Source of the DNA: Chloroflexota bacterium
GTDB lineage: Bacteria; Chloroflexota; Anaerolineae; Anaerolineales; Villigracilaceae
DNA: 64,000 nucleotides
Assembly: GCA_019873655.1 (NCBI GenBank)
Contig: JAIOAU010000001.1
Span: 1 to 64,000, forward strand
Direction: 5' to 3'
Shown here piece after piece: positions 25,392 to 48,415 of the stretch. Every line of letters starts with the position of its first letter. The stretch's first letter is position 1. The notes under the pieces are model-generated. The model made no database searches. It was not told the DNA's origin and worked only from the letters and a program-made list of their open reading frames with translations. Position numbers and translations under genes: made by a program.

Positions 25392-26327
25392 TCAACCCTC
25401 TTCGCGCAGGAAAATCTCCAGGCGCGACATGCCTTCCTGGATGCTATCTCCCAGATAAAGGCCCGGGACCGACTGCGTCAACTCCGGCTGGAGGACGAAC
25501 GCCCGTCCGCCAAACGTGACCAGCGGCTTGCCGTTGACCGTCCGAATCCAGCGCGGCCACTCGGCCAGCGCCTGGGCGGTCTCCTCGCGCATGGCGATCA
25601 ACACCACCAACGGCGGCTGGATTTGCTCCACAAATTCGGCCAAATCAGGGAAGGGGACATTCTGGCCGAGATAGGCCACCGGCCAGCCCTTGCGCCGTAA
25701 CAGGACGCCCAACATCAACAGACTGCCCTCATGCCACTCGCCCGGCGCGCAGGCCAGCACAATCGGATTGACCGGCCTGGGCGGCGGCCCGCTGACCATC
25801 CACATCAGCAGGCGGTGGCGCAGATAGTTCGAGGCCAGATGTTCGGTGGCGATGGTGATGCGCCCCTCTTCCCACAGGCGGCCAATCTCGCTCAGCGCCG
25901 GCCCGATGACCTCGGTGGTCAGCGCTTCGGGGGAGTGAAAGGCCAGCATGTCGCCCATCAACCGGTCGGCGCGGAGCAAATCGTGACTGATCAAGGCGTC
26001 CACCAGCGTATTGCGCAGGGAGACGGGGGCGGCGGAATCCGGCGCGGGACGCGGCCCGCCCTCCGGCGCGGCGGGCAGGAACAGGCGTCCCTCCGATTCG
26101 AGGACGCGCGCCGCGGCAATCGCCCGGCTGACGGTCATCCCCGCGTCCACTTGGGCCTTCACCCAGCGCAGACGGGCGATGTCCTTCTCCGAGTAGAGCC
26201 GATGCCCGCCGGCCGTGCGCGCCGCGGACGGGAATCCGTAGCGCCGCTCCCAGGCGTGCAGGGTGGCGGCCGGCACGCCGGTCAGGCGGGTCACGACGCC
26301 GATGTTGTAGAGGGGTTCTTCGGTCAT
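25392..26327 (-). CDS. CarH/LitR-type MerR regulator with B12-binding photoreceptor domain
   Basis: A 311-residue regulator divergent from crtI. The N-terminal MerR helix-turn-helix covers residues 8-75 (YNIGVVTRLTGVPAATLHAWERRYGFP, GGHRLYSEKDIARL). The C-terminal part has a four-helix and a Rossmann B12-binding domain. The light-sensing signature Wx9EH is exact (W152, E162, H163). H199 in GEWHEGS is positioned as the lower cobalt ligand, although the family ExHxxG motif is off by one at the Gly. The likely role is adenosylcobalamin-dependent repression of carotenoid and photoprotection genes in the dark, released by light. The ATG gives this start; an upstream TTG reading is less likely. Confidence 0.9.
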   Translation of the reverse strand: MTEEPLYNIGVVTRLTGVPAATLHAWERRYGFPSAARTAGGHRLYSEKDIARLRWVKAQVDAGMTVSRAIAAARVLESEGRLFLPAAPEGGPRPAPDSAAPVSLRNTLVDALISHDLLRADRLMGDMLAFHSPEALTTEVIGPALSEIGRLWEEGRITIATEHLASNYLRHRLLMWMVSGPPPRPVNPIVLACAPGEWHEGSLLMLGVLLRRKGWPVAYLGQNVPFPDLAEFVEQIQPPLVVLIAMREETAQALAEWPRWIRTVNGKPLVTFGGRAFVLQPELTQSVPGLYLGDSIQEGMSRLEIFLREEG

Positions 26328-26342
26328 GGTCACCAAGTCATC

Positions 26343-26371: not shown

Positions 26372-26458
26372 AGTGTACACGGCTGTTAATATTTTGTCAA
26401 GGTTTTGAAGTATAAATCAATACAAAACCTTGACAAAATCACTACACAAACCTATAAT
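26372..26458. promoter_or_regulatory. Divergent carH/crtI promoters within repeats
   Basis: Rightward: TTGACA (26430-26435), exactly 17 bp, then TATAAT (26453-26458), a perfect consensus promoter, about 42 nt before the crtI start. Leftward: TTGACA complement (26395-26400), 17 bp, then TACACT (26372-26377 on the opposite strand). Both -35 elements lie in 17-bp perfect inverted arms, ATTTTGTCAAGGTTTTG (26391-26407) and CAAAACCTTGACAAAAT (26423-26439). Rightward, three near-tandem 11-12-bp units can be read (from 26420, 26431 and 26442), reminiscent of the tandem repeats bound by CarH proteins over the -35. Confidence 0.85.
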
Positions 26459-26506
26459 GCGCTCATACCATCCAATCATCGAACGACCAATCTGGAGAAT
26501 AAGACT

Positions 26507-27982
26507 ATGAACATTGCAATTATCGGCGCCGGAATCGGCGGCATCGCAACGGCGGGACGGCTGGCCAGGGCCGGCCACCGCGTGACCGTTTTCGAGAAGA
26601 GCGGCAAACCGGGCGGGCGCGCCGCCGTCATCGAGCGCGACGGCTTCCGCTTCGACACCGGCCCCACCCTCTTCCTCATGCCGGAGGTCTTTGCCGAGAC
26701 CTACGCCGCCCTCGGCGAGCGCATGGAAGACCACCTCGAACTGGTCCACCTCGACCCGACCTACCGCGTCCACTTCCACGATGGGACGCGCCTCGACCTG
26801 AGTTACCGCCTGCCCTTCATGCGCGAGCAGCTCGACGCCATCGAACCCGGCTCCTTCGAGCGCTTCCTGAACTTCATGGCCGAGGGCTACAAGCACTACC
26901 AACTCTCGCTCGAAAAATTCGTCGGGCGCAACTTCTACTCTCTGCTCGATTACTTCGCCCTGCAAAACCTGCCGCTCCTCTTCCAACTCAAGGCGCTGAC
27001 CAAACACGCCGCCAACACCCGCCGCTACTTCCGCGACCCGCGTCTCTTGGCGGCCTTTTCGTTCCAGAACATGTACCTCGGCCTCAGCCCCTACGACGCC
27101 CCGGCCACCTTCTCCCTGCTCCAGTACACCGAACTCGGCGACGGCGTCTGGTTCCCGAAGGGCGGCCTCTACCGTCCCATCGAGACTCTGGCGGCGATTG
27201 CCGAGGGGCTGGGCGTGCGCTTCGAGTACGGGACGCCGGTGCGCAGCATCCAGGTGAATGGCCGCCGCGCCGAAGGCGTCGTCCTCGAGGACGGGACCTT
27301 CGTCCCCGCCGACGTGGTCGTCGCCAACGCCGACCTGCCCTACGTTTACGCCAATCTCCTGCCCGACGACGGCAGCGCCGCCAGACTGGCGCGCAAGAAA
27401 TACACCTCCTCGGCGCTGATGTTCTACTGGGGCGTGAAGGGCGAAAAGTCGCCCGAAATTCTCCACCACAACGTCTTCCTCGCCGACGACCAGTACAAGC
27501 CCTCCTTCGACAAGATTTTCGAGGAACTGACCCTGCCGGAGACGCCCTCGTTCTACGTCAACGCTCCCTCGCGCACCGACCCGTCCTTTGCCCCCGCCGA
27601 CGGCGACGGGCTGATGATTCTCGTGCCGGTCGGCCATCTGGACGAACGCAAGCCCCAGGACTGGGCCGCCCTGCGCGAGCGCGCCCGCGGCTTTGTCATC
27701 GAGCGGCTGGAAAGCATCGGCGTCAAAGACCTCGGCCGCCGCATCCTCTTCGAGGAGACCATCGGGCCGCCCGAATATCTCAAGGCCCTCAACCTGGCGA
27801 AAGGTTCGGCCTTCGGCCTCAGCCACAACTTCCTGCAGGTCGGCTATCTGCGCCCGCACAACCGTCACGCCCGCTACGGCAACCTGTACTTTGCCGGGGC
27901 CAGCACCCATCCCGGCACCGGCCTGCCGATTGTCCTCCTCTCGGCCAAACTGACCACCGAGCGAATCTTAAAGGAACAGTAA
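26507..27982 (+). CDS. crtI: Phytoene desaturase (CrtI-type)
   Basis: A 491-residue FAD-dependent desaturase that introduces double bonds into phytoene towards lycopene. The N-terminal dinucleotide-binding motif AIIGAGIGGIATAGRLARAGHRVTVFEK, GRAAVIERDGFRFDTGPTL and the C-terminal GNLYFAGASTHPGTGLPIVLLSAKL are CrtI signatures. GGAG precedes the ATG at proper distance and the promoter at 26430-26458 drives it. crtB follows 120 bp downstream. The degree of desaturation and exact product cannot be judged from sequence. Confidence 0.93.
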   Translation: MNIAIIGAGIGGIATAGRLARAGHRVTVFEKSGKPGGRAAVIERDGFRFDTGPTLFLMPEVFAETYAALGERMEDHLELVHLDPTYRVHFHDGTRLDLSYRLPFMREQLDAIEPGSFERFLNFMAEGYKHYQLSLEKFVGRNFYSLLDYFALQNLPLLFQLKALTKHAANTRRYFRDPRLLAAFSFQNMYLGLSPYDAPATFSLLQYTELGDGVWFPKGGLYRPIETLAAIAEGLGVRFEYGTPVRSIQVNGRRAEGVVLEDGTFVPADVVVANADLPYVYANLLPDDGSAARLARKKYTSSALMFYWGVKGEKSPEILHHNVFLADDQYKPSFDKIFEELTLPETPSFYVNAPSRTDPSFAPADGDGLMILVPVGHLDERKPQDWAALRERARGFVIERLESIGVKDLGRRILFEETIGPPEYLKALNLAKGSAFGLSHNFLQVGYLRPHNRHARYGNLYFAGASTHPGTGLPIVLLSAKLTTERILKEQ

Positions 27983-28102
27983 GACAACCGCTGGCAGTTC
28001 TACAAACCTGGAAGCATGAAGCCGCGCCGCGTTTTCCGCCGTCTGCTCATCACCTCTCTCGCAGCCTTTCTCTTACCGTTAGACCGTTTCTGGAGGTATC
28101 CG

Positions 28103-29071
28103 ATGACGTTGCAAACCACCCTGCCCTGGGAATCGCGCCTGCTGACTCTGGCGCACGAAGCCCTCGAACATCTGACCACTCCTCCGGTGGCCACGCTGGA
28201 CTCGAATTTGCTGAAGCGCGCCTATGAAACCTGCGAAGCCGTCACCCGTCAGCACAGCCGGACCTTTTACCTGGCTTCCGGCCTCCTGCCGAAGGACAAG
28301 CGTCAGGCGGCGCGCGCCCTCTACGCCTTCTGCCGCGTCAGCGACGACATCGTGGACCGCAGTCTGCACGACGGGCGGCTGGACGAACTCAACGCCTGGC
28401 GCACCCGTTCCCTCTCGGCGCATCCCTCGGACGCCGACCTGGTGGCCGTCGCCTGGGCCGACTCCCGCGCCCGCTTCGGCATCCCGACCCGCTACGCCGA
28501 ACAACTCCTGGACGGCGTCGCCTCCGACCTGACCAAATCCCGCTATCAGACCTTCGACGAACTGGCGGCCTACGCCTACGGCGTCGCCTCGACCGTCGGC
28601 CTGATGGCAATGCACATCATCGGCTTTCGCGGCCCCGAGGCCGTGCCGTATGCCATCAAACTGGGCGTCGCCCTGCAACTGACCAACATCCTGCGCGACG
28701 TGGGCGAGGACTGGCGCAACGGCCGCCTCTACCTGCCGCAGGAAGACCTGGAACGTTTCGGCCTCACCGAAGCCGACATCGCCGCCGGGAAAGTGACCCC
28801 GACCTGGCGCAAGTTCATGCGCTTCCAAATCGAGCGCGTCCGCCGCCTGTACGCCGAGTCCTGGCCGGGGATTGCCATGCTGGACGCCGACGGCCGCTTT
28901 GCCATTGCCGCCGCCGACCTCTACGAGGCCATCCTCGAAGACATCGAGGCGCACGATTACGATGTCTTCACCCGCCGCGCTCATCTCGGCGCGTGGGGCA
29001 AACTCCGCCGCCTGCCCGCCATCTGGCTCAAAACCCAGGCGCTGGAAGACGTCACCGTGTGGTATGAATAA
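28103..29071 (+). CDS. crtB: Phytoene synthase
   Basis: A 322-residue squalene/phytoene synthase that condenses two geranylgeranyl diphosphates. Asp-rich motifs: [12 protein letters not shown] (first) and [18 protein letters not shown] (second). [11 protein letters not shown] and [12 protein letters not shown] are further family blocks. GGAGG lies six bases before the ATG; in-frame codons upstream from 28016 are probably leader. It follows crtI in the same direction and completes the lycopene pathway. Confidence 0.94.
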
Positions 29072-37636: not shown

Positions 37637-38551
37637 ATGCGTCTTGGATACCCCTGCGTCTCTCTCCTGCTCGACCGCACCACCAACCATGACTGCACCC
37701 TGCGCACGGCTGGACCGGAACGCCTGCGCGCCCTGATTGCCCAAAATCTGGCCGACCTGCGCGCCATTCTGGAACACAATCTTGCGCACGGATGGCTGAT
37801 GTTTCGCATCGGTTCCAGCGTCATTCCGTTTGCCTCGCATCCGGTCAACACGCTCGACTGGCAGAACGAATTCGGAGCGGAACTGGCCGCCATCGGCGCG
37901 TTCGCCCGTCAGCACGGGATGCGGCTCTCCTTCCATCCGGGGCAGTACACCGTCCTCAACGCCCCCGACCCGGCCATTGTCGAGCGGGCGAAAGCCGAAA
38001 TTGCCTACTCTGCCGCCTTCCTCGACGCCCTGAGCATGGATGCCTCCTGCAAAATTGTCATCCATCTCGGCGGCGCATACGGCGACCGGGACGCGGCGCG
38101 GGCGCGTTTTGTGGACACGGTAAACCGCCTGGACGAATCGTCCCGCCGCAGGCTGGTCATCGAGAACGACGAGCGTCTCTGGACGCCCGCCGACGCCCTC
38201 TGGGTCTCGGAGCGCACAGCGCTGCCGGTTGTGTTCGACAGCCTGCATTACCAGGCCAATCCCGGCCCCGGCGAACTCGATGAACTGCTCGCCCGCATTT
38301 TTGCGACCTGGGGCCCCGCAGATGGCCCGCCGAAAGTGCATTTCTCCTCCCAGGCCGCCGGCGGACGCTCCGGTCATCACGCCGACTACGCCGACCCTGC
38401 CGAATTCCAGGCCTGGGTCGAACGCTGGTCCCGCTTCGGCGACTTTGACCTGATGCTCGAAGCCAAAGCCAAAGACCGCGCCTTGCAGGCGCTTTCTGAA
38501 TTTACCTCTAGAGAAATTTCTGCATCCTCTCTGCACAAGGAGTACGTATGA
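37637..38551 (+). CDS. uvsE: UV damage endonuclease (UvsE/UvdE)
   Basis: A 304-residue TIM-barrel endonuclease that nicks 5' to UV photoproducts. Family blocks are MRLGYPCVSLLL, WLMFRIGSSVIPFASHP, RLSFHPGQYTVLN, KIVIHLGGAYGDR, RLVIENDERLWTP and VVFDSLHYQ, with metal-binding His, Asp and Glu residues in place. It starts 16 bp after the DUF1295 gene and overlaps the SDR gene by 4 bp. Together with the photolyase it gives light-independent and light-dependent repair. Confidence 0.92.
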   Translation: MRLGYPCVSLLLDRTTNHDCTLRTAGPERLRALIAQNLADLRAILEHNLAHGWLMFRIGSSVIPFASHPVNTLDWQNEFGAELAAIGAFARQHGMRLSFHPGQYTVLNAPDPAIVERAKAEIAYSAAFLDALSMDASCKIVIHLGGAYGDRDAARARFVDTVNRLDESSRRRLVIENDERLWTPADALWVSERTALPVVFDSLHYQANPGPGELDELLARIFATWGPADGPPKVHFSSQAAGGRSGHHADYADPAEFQAWVERWSRFGDFDLMLEAKAKDRALQALSEFTSREISASSLHKEYV

Positions 38552-39177: not shown

Positions 39178-39201
39178 CCTTTGACTTTCGACCTTCGACC
39201 T
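39174..39201 (+). repeat. 7-nt periodic leader before photolyase
   Basis: Units of the type tttgacc/ttcgacc run up to the photolyase ATG without a Shine-Dalgarno sequence. The same unit is longer after the photolyase gene (40741-40795). Confidence 0.7.
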
Positions 39202-40740
39202 ATGACCTCCCTCTGGTGGATTCGCCGCGACCTTCGCCTCGCCGACAACCCGGCGCTTCACGCCGCGCTCCGGGCCGGTTCGGTGGTCCCGGTCTTCGTC
39301 CTCGACCCGAAGTTCGACACCGCCTCCCCCCGGCGGCGTGACTTCCTTTACGGCGGCCTGCGCGCCCTAGATGACTCCCTGCGCGCCCGCGGCTCGTACC
39401 TCGTCCTGCGCCGCGGCGACCCGCTTGATGTCCTCCGTCAACTCCTGGCCGAGACCGGCGCGTCCGCCATTTACGCCGAGGAGGACTACACCCCCTATGC
39501 CCGCGCCCGCGACGAGCGCATCGCCCGCGACCTGCTGCTGGCCCTCGTCCAGGGGCAGACCGTCCATCATCCCCTGGCCGTCCTCAAGCCCGACGGCTCG
39601 CCCTACACCGTCTTCACCCCCTTCAGCCGCGCCTGGAAAGCCGCCCTCCCCGCCGACCTGACGCCGCTCCCGGCTCCGGAACGCATCCCCACCCCTCCCG
39701 GCCTCCGCTCTGACCCGCTCCCATCCGCTTCCGTCCGTTTGTCCGCTTCCGAGTCCGCTGACCCCTCCGCTTCCGTCCGTTTGTCCGCTTCCAAGTCCGC
39801 TGACCCCTCCGCTTCCGTCCGTTTGTCCGCTTCCAAGTCCGCTGACCCCTCCGCTTCCGTCCGTTTGTCCGCTTCCGACTCCGCTGACACATCCGTTTCT
39901 ATCCGTTTGTCCGTTTCCAAGTCCGTTGACCACTTTCCTGCCGGCGAGCAAAAAGCCATTCATCGTCTCGAACAATTCATCCATTCACCAATCACCAATT
40001 ACCATGATTCTCGCAACCGCCTCGACCTGGACGGCACCTCCCGCCTCTCCCCCTATATCCGCTTTGGCATGATTTCGATGCGTCAGGCTGTCCACGCCGT
40101 CCGACGTTTGACCTCCGACCTTCGGCCCGCCGAAGGCGCACAAACCTGGCTCAACGAACTCATCTGGCGCGAATTCTACATCTCCATCCTCTACCACTTC
40201 CCCCATGTCCTGCGTACTGCCTTCAACCCGGCCCTGGCAGACATCCCCTGGCGCAACGACGAGGCCGACTTCGCCGCCTGGAAGGAAGGCTGCACCGGCT
40301 ATCCGGTCGTGGATGCGGCCATGCGTCAACTCCTGGCGACCGGCTGGATGCACAACCGCGCCCGCATGATTGTCGCCTCGTTTCTGGTCAAAGACCTGCT
40401 GATTGACTGGCGCTGGGGCGAAGCCTGGTTCATGGAAAACCTGCTCGACGGCGACCCGGCGGCCAACAACGGCGGCTGGCAGTGGACCGCCGGTGTCGGC
40501 ACCGACGCCGCCCCCTACTTCCGCGTCTTCAACCCCGTCCTGCAATCCCGCAAATTTGACCCCGAAGGGGATTACATCCGCCGCTGGGTTCCCGAACTCG
40601 CCCACCTGCCCGCCGAGGTCATCCACGCCCCCTGGGAGAAGGGAATCCGCGTCCCCGGCTACCCGCCGCCCATCGTGGACCATGCCGCCGTCAGGGAGCG
40701 CACCCTCGCCGCCTACGCCGCCGCCAAAACCAACCGCTGA
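39202..40740 (+). CDS. phr: Deoxyribodipyrimidine photolyase with an in-frame repeat insertion
   Basis: A 512-residue CPD-photolyase-like flavoprotein. The N-terminal antenna domain ([29 protein letters not shown]) leads to a FAD domain with [53 protein letters not shown] and [16 protein letters not shown]. Between the two, residues about 175-244 consist of five 14-residue repeats ([14 protein letters not shown] type) encoded by 42-bp units. They replace part of the interdomain linker before [15 protein letters not shown]. The enzyme uses light to reverse pyrimidine dimers. It starts at the ATG behind a 7-nt repeat leader. Confidence 0.93.
39724..39933 (+). repeat. Five 42-bp tandem repeats inside the photolyase gene
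   Basis: Units start at 39724, 39766, 39808, 39850 and 39892. Each contains tccgcttccgtccgtttg and tccgcttcc. The first four are nearly identical and the fifth has diverged. The total of 210 bp keeps the frame. The style (short C/T-rich sub-units such as gtccgttt) resembles the intergenic periodic leaders. Confidence 0.92.
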
Positions 40741-42143: not shown

Positions 42144-42914
42144 ATGAACAAACCTATCTTTCGTCAACTCCTCGTCATCCTGACCGTCCTGGCGACCATC
42201 ATCGCCAACATCCTCGCCAACGCCCTGCCCCTCAACGGTCTGAACACCGGCGAAATCTCCGACCGCTTTCGGGTCTATTTCGTCCCGGCCGGATACGTCT
42301 TCTCCATCTGGGGCGTCATCTACCTCGGCCTGATTGCCTACGCTGTCTTTCAGGCGCTGCCCTCCCAGCGGGAGAACCCGCGCCTGCAGGCCATCGCCGG
42401 CTGGGCCATTCTCGGCAACCTGGCCAACATCGCCTGGATTTTCCTCTGGCACTATGAACAGTTCGTCGGCACGCTGGGTGCCATGCTCATCCTGCTGGCT
42501 ACGCTCATCGCTGTTTACCTGCGCCTCGGCGCCGGTCTGACAAGAGTCTCGCCTGCCGAGACCTGGGCTGTCCGCCTGCCATTCAGCATCTACCTGGGCT
42601 GGATTACCGTCGCCACGGTTGCCAACGTCACCAGCCTGCTGGATTATCTGAACTGGAATGGCTTCGGCATCGCCCCGGAAATCTGGATGGTCATCGTCCT
42701 GGCGGCGGTGCTGGTCATTGCGGCCCTGATGAACTTCACCCGCCGCGATGTCGCCTACGCCGCCGTCCTCCTGTGGGCGCTGGCCGGGATTGCCGTCAAG
42801 TTCCCCAACGCCGGCATCGTGACCATCGCCACCTGGGTCACCTTCGCGTTGGTTGCCCTGACCCTCACCGCGGCCCTTCTCCTCCGGTCAAGGCCTTCCA
42901 TCCGCCCTCGCTAG
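42144..42914 (+). CDS. TspO/MBR-related tryptophan-rich membrane protein
   Basis: A 256-residue protein with seven predicted helices. The segment FVPAGYVFSIWGVIYLGLIAYAVFQ and a second WIFLWHYEQF resemble the TspO-like family of extended length. AAGGA lies ten bases before the ATG. TspO proteins bind porphyrins and affect photooxidative responses and pigment genes in some bacteria, which would suit this locus. The link is inference. Confidence 0.72.
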   Translation: MNKPIFRQLLVILTVLATIIANILANALPLNGLNTGEISDRFRVYFVPAGYVFSIWGVIYLGLIAYAVFQALPSQRENPRLQAIAGWAILGNLANIAWIFLWHYEQFVGTLGAMLILLATLIAVYLRLGAGLTRVSPAETWAVRLPFSIYLGWITVATVANVTSLLDYLNWNGFGIAPEIWMVIVLAAVLVIAALMNFTRRDVAYAAVLLWALAGIAVKFPNAGIVTIATWVTFALVALTLTAALLLRSRPSIRPR

Positions 42915-42927
42915 CCCGCCGCATCCG

Positions 42928-43095
42928 TCCACCTGTTTACCTGCTTCCCTGTTTACCTTTTTACCTGTTTACCTTTTTACCTACTTACCTGCTCACCTGT
43001 TTACCTACTTCCCTGTTCCTCTCACCCGCCATCCGTCCAACTGCGATTCTTTGCCCATCCGACTATAAGACTATCCGACCATTAGACTCCCGACT
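42928..43095 (+). repeat. Long 8-nt periodic leader
   Basis: About twelve units of tttacctg/cttacctg type are followed by a second class (ccgactataagactatccgacc) that ends exactly at the ATG of the hydrolase gene. There is no Shine-Dalgarno sequence. Nothing else is visible in this 180-bp gap. Confidence 0.8.
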
Positions 43096-44055
43096 ATGAA
43101 ACTCAAACGCACCCTCCTCATCCTCCTTGCCTCTCTCCTCCTGCTCCTCCTCGTCGGCCCCTTCCTCATCCCCGTGCCGCCGCTCGAAGGGACGGTTCCG
43201 CCCGAGCAACTCGCCGACCCCGATAGTTTGTTCGTCGAAATCAACGGCCTGAGCGTCCACTACAAGACGCGCGGCGCGGGTGAGCCGGTCTTTGTCCTGC
43301 TGCATGGCTTCGGGGCCAGCCTCTACTCGTGGAACGCCGTCCTCGAGCCGTTCGGCGAACTCGGCACAGTCATCGCCTACGACCGCCCGGCCTTCGGCCT
43401 CACCGAGCGCCCGCTGACCTGGGAGGGCGAAAGCCCCTACAGCCCCCAGGCGCAGGTGGACATCCTGCTCGGCCTGCTCGACCGCTTCGGCGTGGAACGC
43501 GCTATCCTGGTCGGCAACTCGGCCGGCGGGACGACAGCGATGAATTTCTATCTCCAGCACCCCGATCGCGTGGAGGCGCTGATTCTCGTAGACCCGGCCG
43601 TCTATGCCGGGGGCGGCGCGCCCGCCGGGACCCGCTGGCTGCTGCGCACCCCGCAGATGCGTCATCTCGGTCCGCTGATTGCCCGTCAAATCCAGGCCCG
43701 CGGCCCCGAACTCATCGAAACGGCCTGGTACGACCCCTCCCGCATCACCGAGGAGACCCTCGCCCTCTACAAGAAGCCGCTCCAGGTCGAGAACTGGGAC
43801 CGGGCGCTCTGGGAACTGACCGTCGCCAGCCAGGAGTCCGGCCTGGCCGGGCGGCTGTCCGAGTTCACCCTGCCCGTCCTGGTCATCACCGGCGATACCG
43901 ACCGCATCGTCCCGACCGAGCAGTCCGTCCGTCTGGCCGGGGAACTGCCGCAGGCGACCCTGGTCGTCATCCCGCAGGCCGGGCATGTCCCGCACGAAGA
44001 ACAACCCGCCGCTTTCATGGAAGCGGTCGCGGCGTTCGTACAATCCATCCCTTAA
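43096..44055 (+). CDS. Membrane-anchored alpha/beta hydrolase
   Basis: A 319-residue protein with an N-terminal hydrophobic anchor (LLILLASLLLLLLVGPFLI) and a classic alpha/beta-hydrolase fold: LLHGFGASLYSWN (oxyanion loop), LVGNSAGGTTAM (nucleophile Ser), VITGDTDRIVP (Asp), QAGHVPHEE (His). It lies 27 bp before the heliorhodopsin gene on the same strand. The substrate is unknown. Confidence 0.88.
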   Translation: MKLKRTLLILLASLLLLLLVGPFLIPVPPLEGTVPPEQLADPDSLFVEINGLSVHYKTRGAGEPVFVLLHGFGASLYSWNAVLEPFGELGTVIAYDRPAFGLTERPLTWEGESPYSPQAQVDILLGLLDRFGVERAILVGNSAGGTTAMNFYLQHPDRVEALILVDPAVYAGGGAPAGTRWLLRTPQMRHLGPLIARQIQARGPELIETAWYDPSRITEETLALYKKPLQVENWDRALWELTVASQESGLAGRLSEFTLPVLVITGDTDRIVPTEQSVRLAGELPQATLVVIPQAGHVPHEEQPAAFMEAVAAFVQSIP

Positions 44056-44082
44056 CCGTATCTTTTCAAGAAAGGAAAAAAC

Positions 44083-44886
44083 ATGTCGTCTCAACCTCTC
44101 TCCCCCGCCCAGGCTCCCGAAAAGACCTTTCGCGGCCTGCGCACCTTCAACCTGGTGATGGGCTTCCTGCACCTGATTCAGGGCATCCTGATGATTGTCC
44201 TGAGCAACGATACCCGTTACCCAATCTATACCAACTACCTGAAGTTCGACCTGAGCACCTTCTCGCTCACCCCCGACCCGCAACTGGCCTACCGGCTGCT
44301 CTTTGGCCCGGCGGTGGCGGTCTTCCTGCTCCTCTCGGCGGTGGCGCACTTCAGCCTGTCCACCTTTGGGTACAAGTGGTATGTGGAGAACCTCAAGAAG
44401 GGCATGAACCCGGCCCGCTTCTATGAGTATGCCCTCTCCTCCTCGCTGATGATTGTCCTGATTGGCATGCTGGTCGGCCTGTGGGACCTGGGCGCGCTCA
44501 TCCTCATCTTCGGCCTGAACGCCACGATGAACCTGTTCGGCATCATGATGGAACTGCACAACCAGTACACCAAGAAGACCGACTGGACGGCGTTCATCTA
44601 CGGCTGCATCGCCGGCATCATCCCCTGGGTGGTGATCGTGATGTACTTCCTGGGCGCGATTGCTTCCGGCGGCGAGGCCAAACCCCCGGCCTTCGTGTAC
44701 GCCATCATCCCGACCATCTTCGTGTTCTTCAACATCTTCGCTGTCAACATGTTCCTGCAGTACAAGAAGGTCGGCCCCTGGAAGGATTACCTGTTCGGCG
44801 AGCGCGTCTATATCATCCTCAGCCTGGCCGCCAAGACCGCCCTGGCCTGGATGATTTTCGCCGGCACCCTGGCCCCCATCAACTGA
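44083..44886 (+). CDS. Heliorhodopsin (retinal photoreceptor)
   Basis: A 267-residue, seven-helix protein. Retinal Schiff-base Lys is K251 in helix 7 (SLAAKTALAWMIFAGTL). E115 (FYEYALSSSLMIVLI) is the counter-ion. H30 (GFLHLIQG) and H89 (SAVAHFS) match the conserved active-site histidines. All lie at a near-constant offset (+7 to +10) from the reference heliorhodopsin numbering H23, H80, E107 and K241. Other family blocks: GLNATMNLFGIMMELHN, PPAFVYAIIP, DYLFGERVYIIL. Heliorhodopsins have their N-terminus inside and slow photocycles and are thought to signal rather than pump. AAAGGA precedes the ATG. Confidence 0.96.
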   Translation: MSSQPLSPAQAPEKTFRGLRTFNLVMGFLHLIQGILMIVLSNDTRYPIYTNYLKFDLSTFSLTPDPQLAYRLLFGPAVAVFLLLSAVAHFSLSTFGYKWYVENLKKGMNPARFYEYALSSSLMIVLIGMLVGLWDLGALILIFGLNATMNLFGIMMELHNQYTKKTDWTAFIYGCIAGIIPWVVIVMYFLGAIASGGEAKPPAFVYAIIPTIFVFFNIFAVNMFLQYKKVGPWKDYLFGERVYIILSLAAKTALAWMIFAGTLAPIN

Positions 44887-44907
44887 GTCCGTTTCGTCTC
44901 AAACAAC

Positions 44908-44960
44908 GGCCGCGGATGGTCGCCCTTTTGGCATCCGCGAAATCGGCGAAATCCGCGGCC
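44908..44960 (+). repeat. Hairpin and 9-nt periodic repeat after the heliorhodopsin gene
   Basis: GGCCGCGGAT (44908-44917) is complementary to ATCCGCGGCC (44951-44960). Inside, atccgcgaa/atcggcgaa/atccgcgg is a 9-nt period repeat. The unit lies between heliorhodopsin and the peroxiredoxin gene and may reduce read-through, though no T-run follows. Confidence 0.65.
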
Positions 44961-45005
44961 GCCTCTTGCGCATCCTGTTCTGTCATCAGAAGGAGAGTCA
45001 GAAAC

Positions 45006-45467
45006 ATGCCCAAAGTCTCCCTCGACGCCCCCGCCCCGGACTTCGAACTTGCTGACTACACCGGCCGCCCCTTCCGCCTTTCCGAACAGCGCGGCCGGAA
45101 CGTCCTGCTGGTCTTCAACCGCGGCTTTGTCTGACCGTTCTGCCAGCGGCACATGGCGCAGTTGCGCCAGGACTTTTCGGAATTCGAGAAGCGGAACACC
45201 CTCATCGTGGTCGTCGGCCCCGAAAACGCCGCCGCCTTCGCCCGCTACTTCGGCGAGAACAGCCTGCCCTTCACCGGTCTGCCTGACCCGTCCCACAGTG
45301 TCCTGAAACTGTACGGGCAGGAGGTCAACCTGTTCAAACTCGGCCGCATGCCCGCTCAGGTCATCATTGACCGCGCCGGCGTTGTGCGTTATGCTCACTA
45401 CGGCCACTCGATGGCCGACATTCCGGCGAACGCAGAACTCTTCGAGTTGCTCGATGCGCTCGCCTGA
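45006..45467 (+). CDS. Peroxiredoxin-like protein, candidate selenoprotein (UGA at codon 43)
   Basis: A 153-residue redoxin of the AhpC/TSA-like type if UGA at 45132-45134 is read through. Before it: APDFELADYTGRPFRLSEQ and VLLVFNRGFV; after it: PFCQRHMAQLRQDF, GQEVNLFKLGRMPAQVIID. The UGA replaces the first Cys of the CPFC motif, giving UPFC. The sequence stays well conserved on both sides, and a SECIS-like hairpin lies 19 nt downstream. GGAG precedes the ATG. Function: probably thiol/selenol peroxide reduction. A recent nonsense mutation is the alternative. Confidence 0.8.
45154..45169 (+). promoter_or_regulatory. SECIS-like stem-loop in the peroxiredoxin coding sequence
   Basis: TGGCGC and GCGCCA form a perfect 6-bp stem with an AGTT loop. 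The G at loop position two lies 29 nt after the U of the UGA codon. Bacterial SECIS elements need a short stem in this distance range with a G in the first two loop positions. A shorter stem at 45142-45157 is an alternative fold. Confidence 0.6.
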
Positions 45468-45477
45468 CTCGATTGCG

Positions 45478-46101
45478 ATGATGAACTTGCCCCTCCAGCC
45501 GCTTCCTTTCCCTCCCTGGCTGACGGCGGTGTTGTTCAGCCTGCTGGGATTCTGCCTGGGGGCCATCCCCTTTTCGCTCTACCTGGCGCGCTGGGCGGCG
45601 GGCCGGGATATCCGTCAAATCGCCGACGGCAATCCCGGGGCGACCAACGCCTGGCGCGCCGCCGGCTGGCCGGTCGGCCTGCTGGCCTATTTCCTGGACA
45701 TCAGCAAGGCCGTCGTGCCGGTTCTGCTGGCGGTTCACCATTTCGGCGTCCAGGGCTGGAACGTCGTCCCGGTCGCCCTCGCGCCGACCCTCGGTCACGT
45801 CTTTTCGCCGCTCCTGAGGGGGCGCGGCGGCAAGGGTCTGGCGAGCGTTCTCGGCGCGTGGATCGGCGTCAGCATCATCGAGGTTCCGCTGGTCATCCTG
45901 CTCCTGCTGACGCCGCTCTTTCTCTGGCTGCGCAAATCGGCGCTCTCGGTCCTCCTGACCGCCTCGCTGACTCTGTGCTACCTGCTCCTCTTCCACCGCG
46001 ATCCGGCCTGGATCGTCCTCCTGCTCCTGCAAACGCTCCTCATCGCCTGGACGCATCGCAGCGAACTGCCCGCCCTGCGGCGTCTCCTGCATCTGCCATG
46101 A
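45478..46101 (+). CDS. plsY: Glycerol-3-phosphate acyltransferase PlsY-like
   Basis: A 207-residue, five- to six-helix protein. Conserved PlsY blocks: LGAIPFSLYLARW, DGNPGATNAWR, and APTLGHVFSPLLRGRGGKGLA. PlsY transfers acyl from acyl-phosphate to glycerol-3-phosphate, the first step of phospholipid synthesis. Two adjacent ATGs are possible starts and the ribosome site is poor. The stop overlaps the next gene's start by 4 bp. Next to carotenoid genes it might equally serve membrane or glycolipid remodelling. Confidence 0.85.
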   Translation: MMNLPLQPLPFPPWLTAVLFSLLGFCLGAIPFSLYLARWAAGRDIRQIADGNPGATNAWRAAGWPVGLLAYFLDISKAVVPVLLAVHHFGVQGWNVVPVALAPTLGHVFSPLLRGRGGKGLASVLGAWIGVSIIEVPLVILLLLTPLFLWLRKSALSVLLTASLTLCYLLLFHRDPAWIVLLLLQTLLIAWTHRSELPALRRLLHLP

Positions 46102-47273
46102 ACCTTTTCCCTGCCGGCGCGCCAGGAACTTTCCTCTACAACCAGCAGGTGGGCGTCCTCGTCTTCTGCGCCGCGCTGACGCTCATCCTGCTGGGCAATC
46201 TGCTCGGCATGCGCCGCCTGGGGCGGCTGACTCCCGCCCGCGAACGGCCGCTCGTCTCCGTGCTGATTCCCGCCCGCAACGAGCAGGCCAACATCGAGGC
46301 CTGCGTCCGCTCCCTTCTGGCCCAGACGTACGCGCCTTTCGAACTGCTCGTCCTGGACGACGCCTCGACCGACGGCACCGCCGAGGCGCTGGCCCGCCTG
46401 GCGGCCGAAGCGCCCCGCTTGCAGGTCCTGCAGGGCGCGCCGCTGCCGGAGGGCTGGCTGGGCAAGAACTGGGCCTGCCATCAACTGGCGCAGGCCGCCC
46501 GCGGCGACTTCCTGCTCTTTCTGGACGCCGACACGCGCGCCGACCCGCGCTTCCTGGAGGATGTCGTCGCCCTGGCCTGCCGCGCCCGCCTCGACTACTT
46601 CTCCGGCGTGCCGCGCCAGGACGCCCCGACGCTGGCCGAGCGGCTGATCGTCCCCATGCTGCCTTGGATCGCCCACAGCCTGACGCCCGTCCCGCTCATC
46701 CGCTGGCTGCCGCTCGCCTTCCTGGCTCCGGCGGTCGGTCAGTGCATGTTCTTCCGCCGGGCCGCCTACGAACGAATCGGCGGACACGCCGCTGTGCGGT
46801 CTGTCATCGTCGAGGACTTTGCCCTCGCCCGGCGCGCCAAACGCTTCGGCCTGCGCTGGGACCTGGTGGACGCCTCCCCGCGCCTGACGACCCGCATGTA
46901 CCGCACCCTCGCCCAGGCCTGGGACGGCTTCAGCAAGAGCCTCTTTGGAGCCTTCGGCTACAATTTGCCGGTCTTTGCGTTCGTCTGGGCCTGGATGCTG
47001 CTGGTCTTCTGGCAGCCCTGGATCGGGCTGGCCCTCGGCCTGCTCGGCCGCCCGCCGGCCGGTTTCTCGCCGCTCCTGGCTCTGGCCGCCATCGTTCTGC
47101 AGGCGGGCCTGTGGGCGGCGACCGCCCTGCGCTTCCGCTCGCCGCTCCTGCAAATTCCCCTCTACCCCCTGACGATCGCCTTCTTCGCGGCCGCCGCGGT
47201 CCGCTCGGCCTGGCGGCATTACCGCCGCCGGCCGCTGACCTGGAAGGGACGCCAACTGCCCGTGAAAAAATGA
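46098..47273 (+). CDS. Family-2 glycosyltransferase, carotenoid-associated (CrtQ-like)
   Basis: A 391-residue membrane GT2. An N-terminal helix precedes the catalytic domain with VLIPARNEQANIEACVRSLL, LDDASTDGTA, DAD at FLDADTRADPRF, and a C-terminal EDFALARRAKRFG, followed by three membrane helices. The layout resembles carotenoid glycosyltransferases (CrtQ/CruC type) and hopanoid-associated GT2 enzymes. Its position directly before lycopene cyclase, with a 4-bp overlap, favours a carotenoid glycosylation role. Confidence 0.82.
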   Translation: MNLFPAGAPGTFLYNQQVGVLVFCAALTLILLGNLLGMRRLGRLTPARERPLVSVLIPARNEQANIEACVRSLLAQTYAPFELLVLDDASTDGTAEALARLAAEAPRLQVLQGAPLPEGWLGKNWACHQLAQAARGDFLLFLDADTRADPRFLEDVVALACRARLDYFSGVPRQDAPTLAERLIVPMLPWIAHSLTPVPLIRWLPLAFLAPAVGQCMFFRRAAYERIGGHAAVRSVIVEDFALARRAKRFGLRWDLVDASPRLTTRMYRTLAQAWDGFSKSLFGAFGYNLPVFAFVWAWMLLVFWQPWIGLALGLLGRPPAGFSPLLALAAIVLQAGLWAATALRFRSPLLQIPLYPLTIAFFAAAAVRSAWRHYRRRPLTWKGRQLPVKK

Positions 47274-48415
47274 CCGCTTACGACTACGTCCTCCTCGGCG
47301 GCGGCGCGGCCGGCCTCAGCCTGGCGCTCGCCCTCGCCCGCAGTCCCCTGCGGGACAAATCCATCCTCATCGTCGAGAAAGACGAGAAGAAGACCAACGA
47401 CCGCACCTGGTGCTTCTGGACCGACGCGCCCACTCCCTTCGACGGAATTGCGCGCCGCGTCTGGACCCGCCTGCGCTTCCTCGCTCCCGCCGCCGACCGG
47501 ACCTGGGACCTGCTCCCGTTTCGATACCTCATGCTGCGCGGCCTCGACTTCTACGAGCATGCCCGCCGCGAACTGACCAGACACAACGTCACCTTCCTGC
47601 GCGGCGCGGGGGAAGTGGAAGACGGCGCGGACTTCGCCCGCGTGACCGTCGCCCTGCCGGACGGCGGCGTGCAGACCTTCACAGCCGACTATGTTTTCGA
47701 CAGCCGCCCGCCTGTAGATCGGATTGCCAATCCGACCTACAATTTCCTCAAACAACACTTTCTCGGCTGGGAGGTGGAAACCGAGCGCCCGGTCTTCGAC
47801 CCCGAAACGGTCACGATGTTCGACCTGCGCACGCCCCAGCGCGGCGGAATCACCTTCTTCTACGTCCTGCCTTTCGCTCCGACCCGCGCCCTGGTCGAGT
47901 ACACGCTCTTCTCGCCCGACCTGCTCCCGCCCGAAGACTACGAGGCGGCCCTGCGCGGCTACCTGGCCGACCTGGGCGCCGGCTCGTACCGCATCCTGGA
48001 GACCGAGCGCGGCGTCATCCCGATGACCGACCAACCCTTCCCGCGCCGCCTCGGACGCCGCGTCATCGCCATCGGGACGCGCGGCGGGCGCGTCAAACCC
48101 TCCACCGGCTACGCCTTTGCCCGCATCCAGCGCGATTCGGCGCGCATCGTCGCCTCGCTCCTGCGCCGCGGCCATCCCTTCGCCATCCCGCCCGACAAAC
48201 TGCGCTTCCGCCTGCACGACTCGGTCTTGCTGGAAGTCCTTGCCAGAGAGCCAGACCTGGGACGCCCGATTTTCACTGCCATCTTCACCAAAAATCCCAT
48301 CCAGCGCGTGCTCAAGTTCCTCGACGACCGCACCGCCTGGTGGGAGGACTTGCCCATCATGGTCGCCCACGACCCGCGCCCGTTCCTGCGCGCCGTCTGG
48401 AGGCGGTTCTTTTGA
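47270..48415 (+). CDS. Lycopene cyclase (CrtY-like)
   Basis: A 381-residue FAD-type cyclase converting lycopene to cyclic carotenes. The dinucleotide motif is YVLLGGGAAGLSLALALAR; NDRTWCFW, HFLGWEVETERPVFDPETVTMFD and TRGGRVKPSTGYAFARIQ are cyclase signatures. Residues 149-157 (VDRIANPTY) are encoded by a palindrome (47713-47741) and look like an insert after VFDSRPP. It overlaps the glycosyltransferase by 4 bp. The ring type formed is unclear. Confidence 0.88.
   Translation: MTAYDYVLLGGGAAGLSLALALARSPLRDKSILIVEKDEKKTNDRTWCFWTDAPTPFDGIARRVWTRLRFLAPAADRTWDLLPFRYLMLRGLDFYEHARRELTRHNVTFLRGAGEVEDGADFARVTVALPDGGVQTFTADYVFDSRPPVDRIANPTYNFLKQHFLGWEVETERPVFDPETVTMFDLRTPQRGGITFFYVLPFAPTRALVEYTLFSPDLLPPEDYEAALRGYLADLGAGSYRILETERGVIPMTDQPFPRRLGRRVIAIGTRGGRVKPSTGYAFARIQRDSARIVASLLRRGHPFAIPPDKLRFRLHDSVLLEVLAREPDLGRPIFTAIFTKNPIQRVLKFLDDRTAWWEDLPIMVAHDPRPFLRAVWRRFF
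47713..47741. repeat. Palindromic element inside the lycopene cyclase gene
   Basis: TGTAGATCGGATT and AATCCGACCTACA pair with one mismatch around GCC. It is in frame and adds about nine residues. It is a typical intergenic palindrome type, so location within a coding sequence is notable. Confidence 0.85.

Follow-up and report, generated by a model that had tools for sequence, protein, structure and literature searches.

Identification of the gene

The question raised by this locus is whether a small redoxin gene that looks interrupted by a stop codon is broken, or whether the stop is read as selenocysteine (Sec), and in the latter case what kind of enzyme is made and whether it has any connection with light. 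The gene lies on the forward strand of the window, that is, the whole stretch of 64,000 nucleotides of Chloroflexota DNA analyzed here, at positions 45006-45467. Its frame opens with an ATG at 45006, preceded by a ribosome-binding site (AAGGAG, forward strand, 44990-44995) located 10 nt 5' of the start, holds a single in-frame TGA at codon 43 (45132-45134) and is otherwise open to a terminal TGA at 45465-45467. When the internal TGA is read as Sec, the residues around it are V-U-P-F-C and the product of 153 amino acids matches the Pfam families AhpC-TSA (80 bits) and Redoxin (65 bits), both matches spanning the TGA. A first-pass annotation of the window had described a redoxin frame with this lone UGA, and both its coordinates and its frame check out. 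Our results show that the locus is a genuine selenoprotein gene, coding for a known kind of protein from a new, little-described Chloroflexota branch, and that what looks like an interrupted gene almost certainly encodes an intact small redox enzyme carrying selenocysteine.

Conservation of the in-frame TGA

As a homologue set we used the 121 closest matches (E <= 2e-35) in 200 related genomes, among which 117 hold exactly one in-frame TGA and four hold none. The TGA stands at the same codon in every homologue aligned, within a UPFC or UPYC motif or one of the close variants UPHC, URHC and UTHC, and the frames that carry it are otherwise intact at 42-77% identity. The first-pass annotation had placed the UGA where the first Cys of the motif belongs, and the alignment agrees, since L095-L098 carry Cys (TGC) at this site and the other homologues TGA. 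Of the 48 rows of an alignment, 44 have Sec at position 43 and the other four have Cys, while C46 and P116 are invariant throughout. The conservation claimed beyond the UGA is likewise borne out, as purifying selection goes on 3' of the TGA. In a wider spread of 301 Chloroflexota genomes the TGA form was found in 32 of the 34 with a match at E <= 1e-20, and TGA-bearing relatives also occur among records named Syntrophaceae, Syntrophomonadaceae and Alkalibacter. Nearly all members of the family in an order of Chloroflexota contain Sec, which points to a strong selenium dependence in that order.

The genome to which the window belongs (3.04 Mb in 45 contigs, 99.8% complete) encodes selA, selB, selD and a tRNA-Sec with anticodon TCA, so that the machinery on which the first-pass annotation had made its claim depend is present in full. 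Two genomes with the Cys form only (G134 and G147, 96-97% complete) were found without selA; G012 encodes selA and has both a Sec copy and a Cys paralogue. In two TGA carriers (G079 and G094) selA was not found, in assemblies that are only 85-88% complete.

These data bear on two readings in which codon 43 is not Sec. If the gene were a pseudogene, or the TGA a sequencing error, the stop would simply interrupt it, as TGA does act as an ordinary stop elsewhere in this genome, including at the Sec gene's own end; the recurrence of the same TGA in 117 matches in related genomes, with frames otherwise intact at such divergence, the selection that continues past it and the encoded Sec machinery all speak against this, and the comparative data refute it, leaving it a negligible probability. 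The genome could also read UGA as another amino acid, as in a Trp or Gly code. Such a reassignment has in its favor only a frame that stays open once TGA is taken as a sense codon, and it is contradicted by the Cys (TGC) of the homologues, by the genes of the window, the Sec gene among them, that end in TGA, and by the finding that the tRNA with the UCA anticodon is tRNA-Sec; we give it next to no weight. On these comparative grounds the Sec assignment of codon 43 appears near certain.

The SECIS element and selection at the RNA level

The first-pass annotation had also described a hairpin with a 6-bp stem and an AGUU loop whose G is 29 nt from the U of the UGA, a geometry that is exact. This element, with the sequence UGGCGC-AGUU-GCGCCA, lies 3' of the TGA on the forward strand at 45154-45169 (stem 45154-45159/45164-45169, loop 45160-45163) and is assigned as a bacterial SECIS hairpin by folding, conservation and published criteria. 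Numbered from the U of the UGA, its pairs run from U23-A38 through C28-G33, and the free energy of the 18-nt hairpin is -10.8 kcal/mol. It conforms to the bacterial SECIS model, in which the loop has 3-9 nt with a G in its first two positions, the stem 4-16 bp, the spacing is 16-37 nt and the MFE <= -7.5 (PMC13188914), and the SECIS check proposed in that annotation thus has a positive outcome. Nevertheless, a comparable hairpin follows 173 of the 1657 TGA triplets of this GC-rich window (~10%), and 5.5-7% of codon-preserving reshuffles of the Sec gene fold equally stably. Taken from a single sequence, the hairpin is modestly better than chance, suggestive but weak evidence alone, and given these background rates we rejected single-sequence folding as proof of a SECIS element. 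An Rfam scan of the window gave no match, a result without bearing on the SECIS. It is the comparative evidence, and not the lone hairpin, that makes Sec decoding certain, and it is for this reason that we accept it.

Part of that evidence comes from a codon-freeze test, in which the 66 Sec genes of the window's clade were compared with pooled codon usage. Leu+10 is TTG in 66 of 66 genes (pooled usage 19%), Gln+9 is CAG in all 66 (62%) and Ala+8 is GCG in 63 of 64 (20%). The freeze is not due to relatedness alone, because conserved residues outside the hairpin vary in codon in the same 66 genes. All five inner stem pairs form in 65 of the 66, with G-U and U-G variants, and in L074 one compensatory swap in the stem, from G-C to A-U, also changes Arg to Cys in the protein. 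Against codon shuffles, the hairpins of the clade's Sec genes have a mean z-score of -2.6.

A sister clade (L114-L134, 43-57% identity) lacks the hairpin of the window's clade, and most of its members have instead a GCGCGC-AGUUG-GCGCGC hairpin nine nt nearer the UGA. The encoded peptide follows the register of the hairpin, being MAQLR in the window's clade and AQLAR in the sister clade. Two hairpin registers in sister clades, with the peptide tracking the RNA, mean that the coding sequence has been shaped by the recoding signal. RNAalifold found no common fold in the mixed set of other TGA homologues, because this set mixes clades; the sister clade alone, in its own register, folds well. The four TGC homologues, which serve as natural controls, are without the stable hairpin of the clade, although L097 retains part of it. 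In the sister-clade register the hairpin is poor in L117 and, more weakly, in L115. L117 keeps the TGA, but neither register yields a clear hairpin in it; its SECIS could be at another place, or this may be a decaying gene.

Enzyme class and predicted mechanism

The first-pass annotation had called the product a peroxiredoxin (Prx), a name that stands for the fold and the broad family and fails for the active site. The AlphaFold model of the 153-residue product (pLDDT 92.6) has its best fold matches in PrxQ/BCP and AhpE, and ResA is also matched. The active site of a peroxiredoxin comprises the peroxidatic Cys, Thr and Pro of the PxxxTxxC motif and a catalytic Arg. In the sequence alignment, C46 occupies the position of the peroxidatic Cys, whereas Sec43 falls on the Thr and R39 on the Pro, so that neither Pro nor Thr/Ser is kept; P116, invariant in 48 sequences, aligns with the catalytic Arg, although R114, two residues before it, may still have an equivalent role. 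When aligned with the TlpA-type protein 3hdc, Sec43-P-F-C46 lies on C-P-Y-C and R114-M-P116 on R-L-P.

Prx-like thiol:disulfide oxidoreductases, or Prx-like UxxC selenoproteins (PF00578), have been reported previously, Syntrophus and Geobacter being among their hosts (PMC1088965, PMC1794560, PMC13188914). The product of the window has the AhpC/TSA domain with UxxC that defines them, and shares with them the thioredoxin-like UxxC in place of TxxU and the bacterial SECIS; as far as a comparison with published descriptions goes, the Chloroflexota branch differs in having its own SECIS-fixed AQL(R) peptide. Placed by those descriptions and by its sequence, the protein is of the Prx-like UxxC kind and falls outside the peroxiredoxins proper. 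Our literature search found no paper joining selenoprotein, peroxiredoxin and Anaerolineae. PrxU, the Sec peroxiredoxin with TxxU, has the same fold with its Sec at the peroxidatic position, whereas the Sec of the window protein is at the Thr position. ResA/TlpA thiol:disulfide oxidoreductases share the C-P-x-C and the RxP cis-Pro elements (aligned on 3hdc), but they are usually membrane-anchored or exported, whereas no leader is visible in the window protein, which over the whole domain matches PrxQ/BCP somewhat better. Among NCBIfam models none is matched above its cut-off; the best is the SelL-related NF040769, also a redoxin with a CxxC-type active site, which is matched by 48 of the 48 family members and which the window protein matches with 82 bits, short of the curated cut-off of 120. 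The motif of SelL is UxxU and that of the window protein UxxC. Since no NCBIfam model covers the protein above cut-off, annotation may mistake such genes for truncated ones or for pseudogenes.

On the best reading of the data, ribosomes decode the UGA as selenocysteine by means of SelB and tRNA-Sec(UCA), with the hairpin as the directing signal, giving a predicted cytosolic enzyme of AhpC/TSA fold with a thioredoxin-type U43-P-F-C46 and P116 at the cis-Pro position. In the mechanism that we infer from alignment and fold, Sec43 most likely makes the attack on the substrate, either a disulfide or a peroxide, C46 would resolve the intermediate through a selenenylsulfide with Sec43, and a thioredoxin-type donor would re-reduce the enzyme. 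Taken jointly, decoding of the UGA as Sec and membership of the UxxC redox class are very probable. For the substrate we lean slightly to peroxide over disulfide, that is, to clearance of peroxide or organic hydroperoxides, and only because of the photoprotective gene neighborhood.

Two candidate selenoproteins were seen elsewhere in this genome. The selD gene (L011; contig 19, 23371-24303) has one in-frame TGA, and SelD is itself probably a selenoprotein, judging by its sequence; on the minus strand of contig 17 (L141:1462-2271) lies a second predicted one, a canonical TPVU peroxiredoxin whose C-terminal part is a fused glutaredoxin-like domain (CPAC).

Gene neighborhood and a possible link with light

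The gene immediately upstream, at 44083-44886 (forward strand), is a genuine heliorhodopsin (PF18761, 340 bits), as the first-pass annotation had it. It is preceded on the same strand by an alpha/beta hydrolase (43096-44055) and by a TspO-like membrane protein (42144-42914), named by sequence resemblance and without a Pfam match. Downstream, also on the forward strand, a PlsY-type glycerol-3-phosphate acyltransferase (45478-46101) starts 10-13 nt past the Sec gene and is followed by a CrtY-type lycopene cyclase (47270-48415). Farther upstream are a DNA photolyase (39181-40740) and the UV-damage endonuclease UvdE (37637-38551), both forward, and a regulator with MerR and B12-binding domains, the architecture of LitR/CarH-type photoreceptors (25392-26336, reverse strand), divergent from a CrtI-like phytoene desaturase and a CrtB phytoene synthase (26501-29071, forward strand). 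The stretch 25392-48415 has the appearance of a light/UV-stress island, with the LitR/CarH-type regulator, crtI, crtB, UvdE, photolyase, heliorhodopsin and crtY; it also holds two PNPOx-like proteins and is largely common to G002 (L143), of the same genus.

The first-pass annotation had gone on to propose that heliorhodopsin links light and peroxide defence, a claim that we find weak. Heliorhodopsin is present in 24 of the 200 genomes and adjoins the Sec gene only in the window's genome and in G001, both of one genus, the G001 contig ending inside the Sec gene just past the TGA; G049 and G089 carry heliorhodopsin about 8-10 kb from the Sec gene, on one contig with it. The cluster of G002 has the LitR-type regulator, crtI, crtB, photolyase, DUF6992, TspO-like protein, alpha/beta hydrolase, Sec gene, plsY and crtY, and heliorhodopsin was not found in that genome. 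The 200-genome comparison rules out heliorhodopsin as a general partner of the Sec gene. The wider association is with the TspO-like protein, the alpha/beta hydrolase and the LitR/carotenoid/photolyase cluster: of the 20 relatives for which wide flanks were compared, 10 have the TspO-like gene close to the Sec gene, eight have the hydrolase adjacent to it and five have a LitR-type gene, counted at >= 55% identity, in its vicinity. Alpha/beta hydrolase, MerR regulator and photolyase are published neighbors of heliorhodopsins (PMC11109279), and LitR controls light-induced genes in other organisms (PMC9758184). The interval separating the LitR-type gene from crtI contains a TGTACA site, at 26374; this motif, a single published one from Pseudomonas, does not occur in 42900-45500, around the Sec gene, and no LitR/CarH promoter site could be assigned there by it. 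The LitR/carotenoid/photolyase neighborhood is circumstantially a better light link than heliorhodopsin, and a light link of the Sec gene wider than heliorhodopsin seems plausible from gene order.

What the enzyme does can be read in several ways. A true peroxiredoxin, with Sec43 as the peroxidatic residue and expressed together with heliorhodopsin for light-driven peroxide defence, would agree with the AhpC/TSA fold, with PrxQ/BCP as the closest structures and with the redox genes reported near heliorhodopsins (PMC8612252). We consider it improbable, given that the peroxidatic position is that of C46, with which the Sec of the genome's own TxxU peroxiredoxin also aligns, that Sec43, R39 and P116 stand for Thr, Pro and Arg, and that heliorhodopsin is adjacent in two genomes only and missing from the G002 cluster. 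A general thiol:disulfide oxidoreductase unconnected to light, in an incidental neighborhood, is a much stronger contender, somewhat short of an even chance; it concerns substrate and role only and leaves Sec decoding as it is. The UxxC and cis-Pro elements fit ResA/TlpA-type enzymes in the 3hdc alignment, and many relatives have Sec genes without LitR, photolyase or crt genes nearby, but the clustering with TspO-like, alpha/beta hydrolase, LitR-type and carotenoid genes recurs in several genera. More tentatively, and with a probability well below that of the light-independent oxidoreductase, the selenoprotein may be light-induced within a LitR/CarH-type (B12 photoreceptor) photo-oxidative response of Anaerolineales that are not phototrophic; its partners would be the TspO-like protein and the alpha/beta hydrolase, and in this genus it would be coupled to heliorhodopsin as well. 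If this is true, it would be a selenoenzyme under light control. Because the gene recurs next to LitR-type, carotenoid, photolyase and TspO-like genes, a connection between selenium and light stress can be tested directly.

Between heliorhodopsin and the Sec gene a scan for sigma-70 promoters and terminators gave no useful promoter, and the same interval contains nested inverted repeats at 44908-44964 (GGCCGCGGAT...ATCCGCGGCC).
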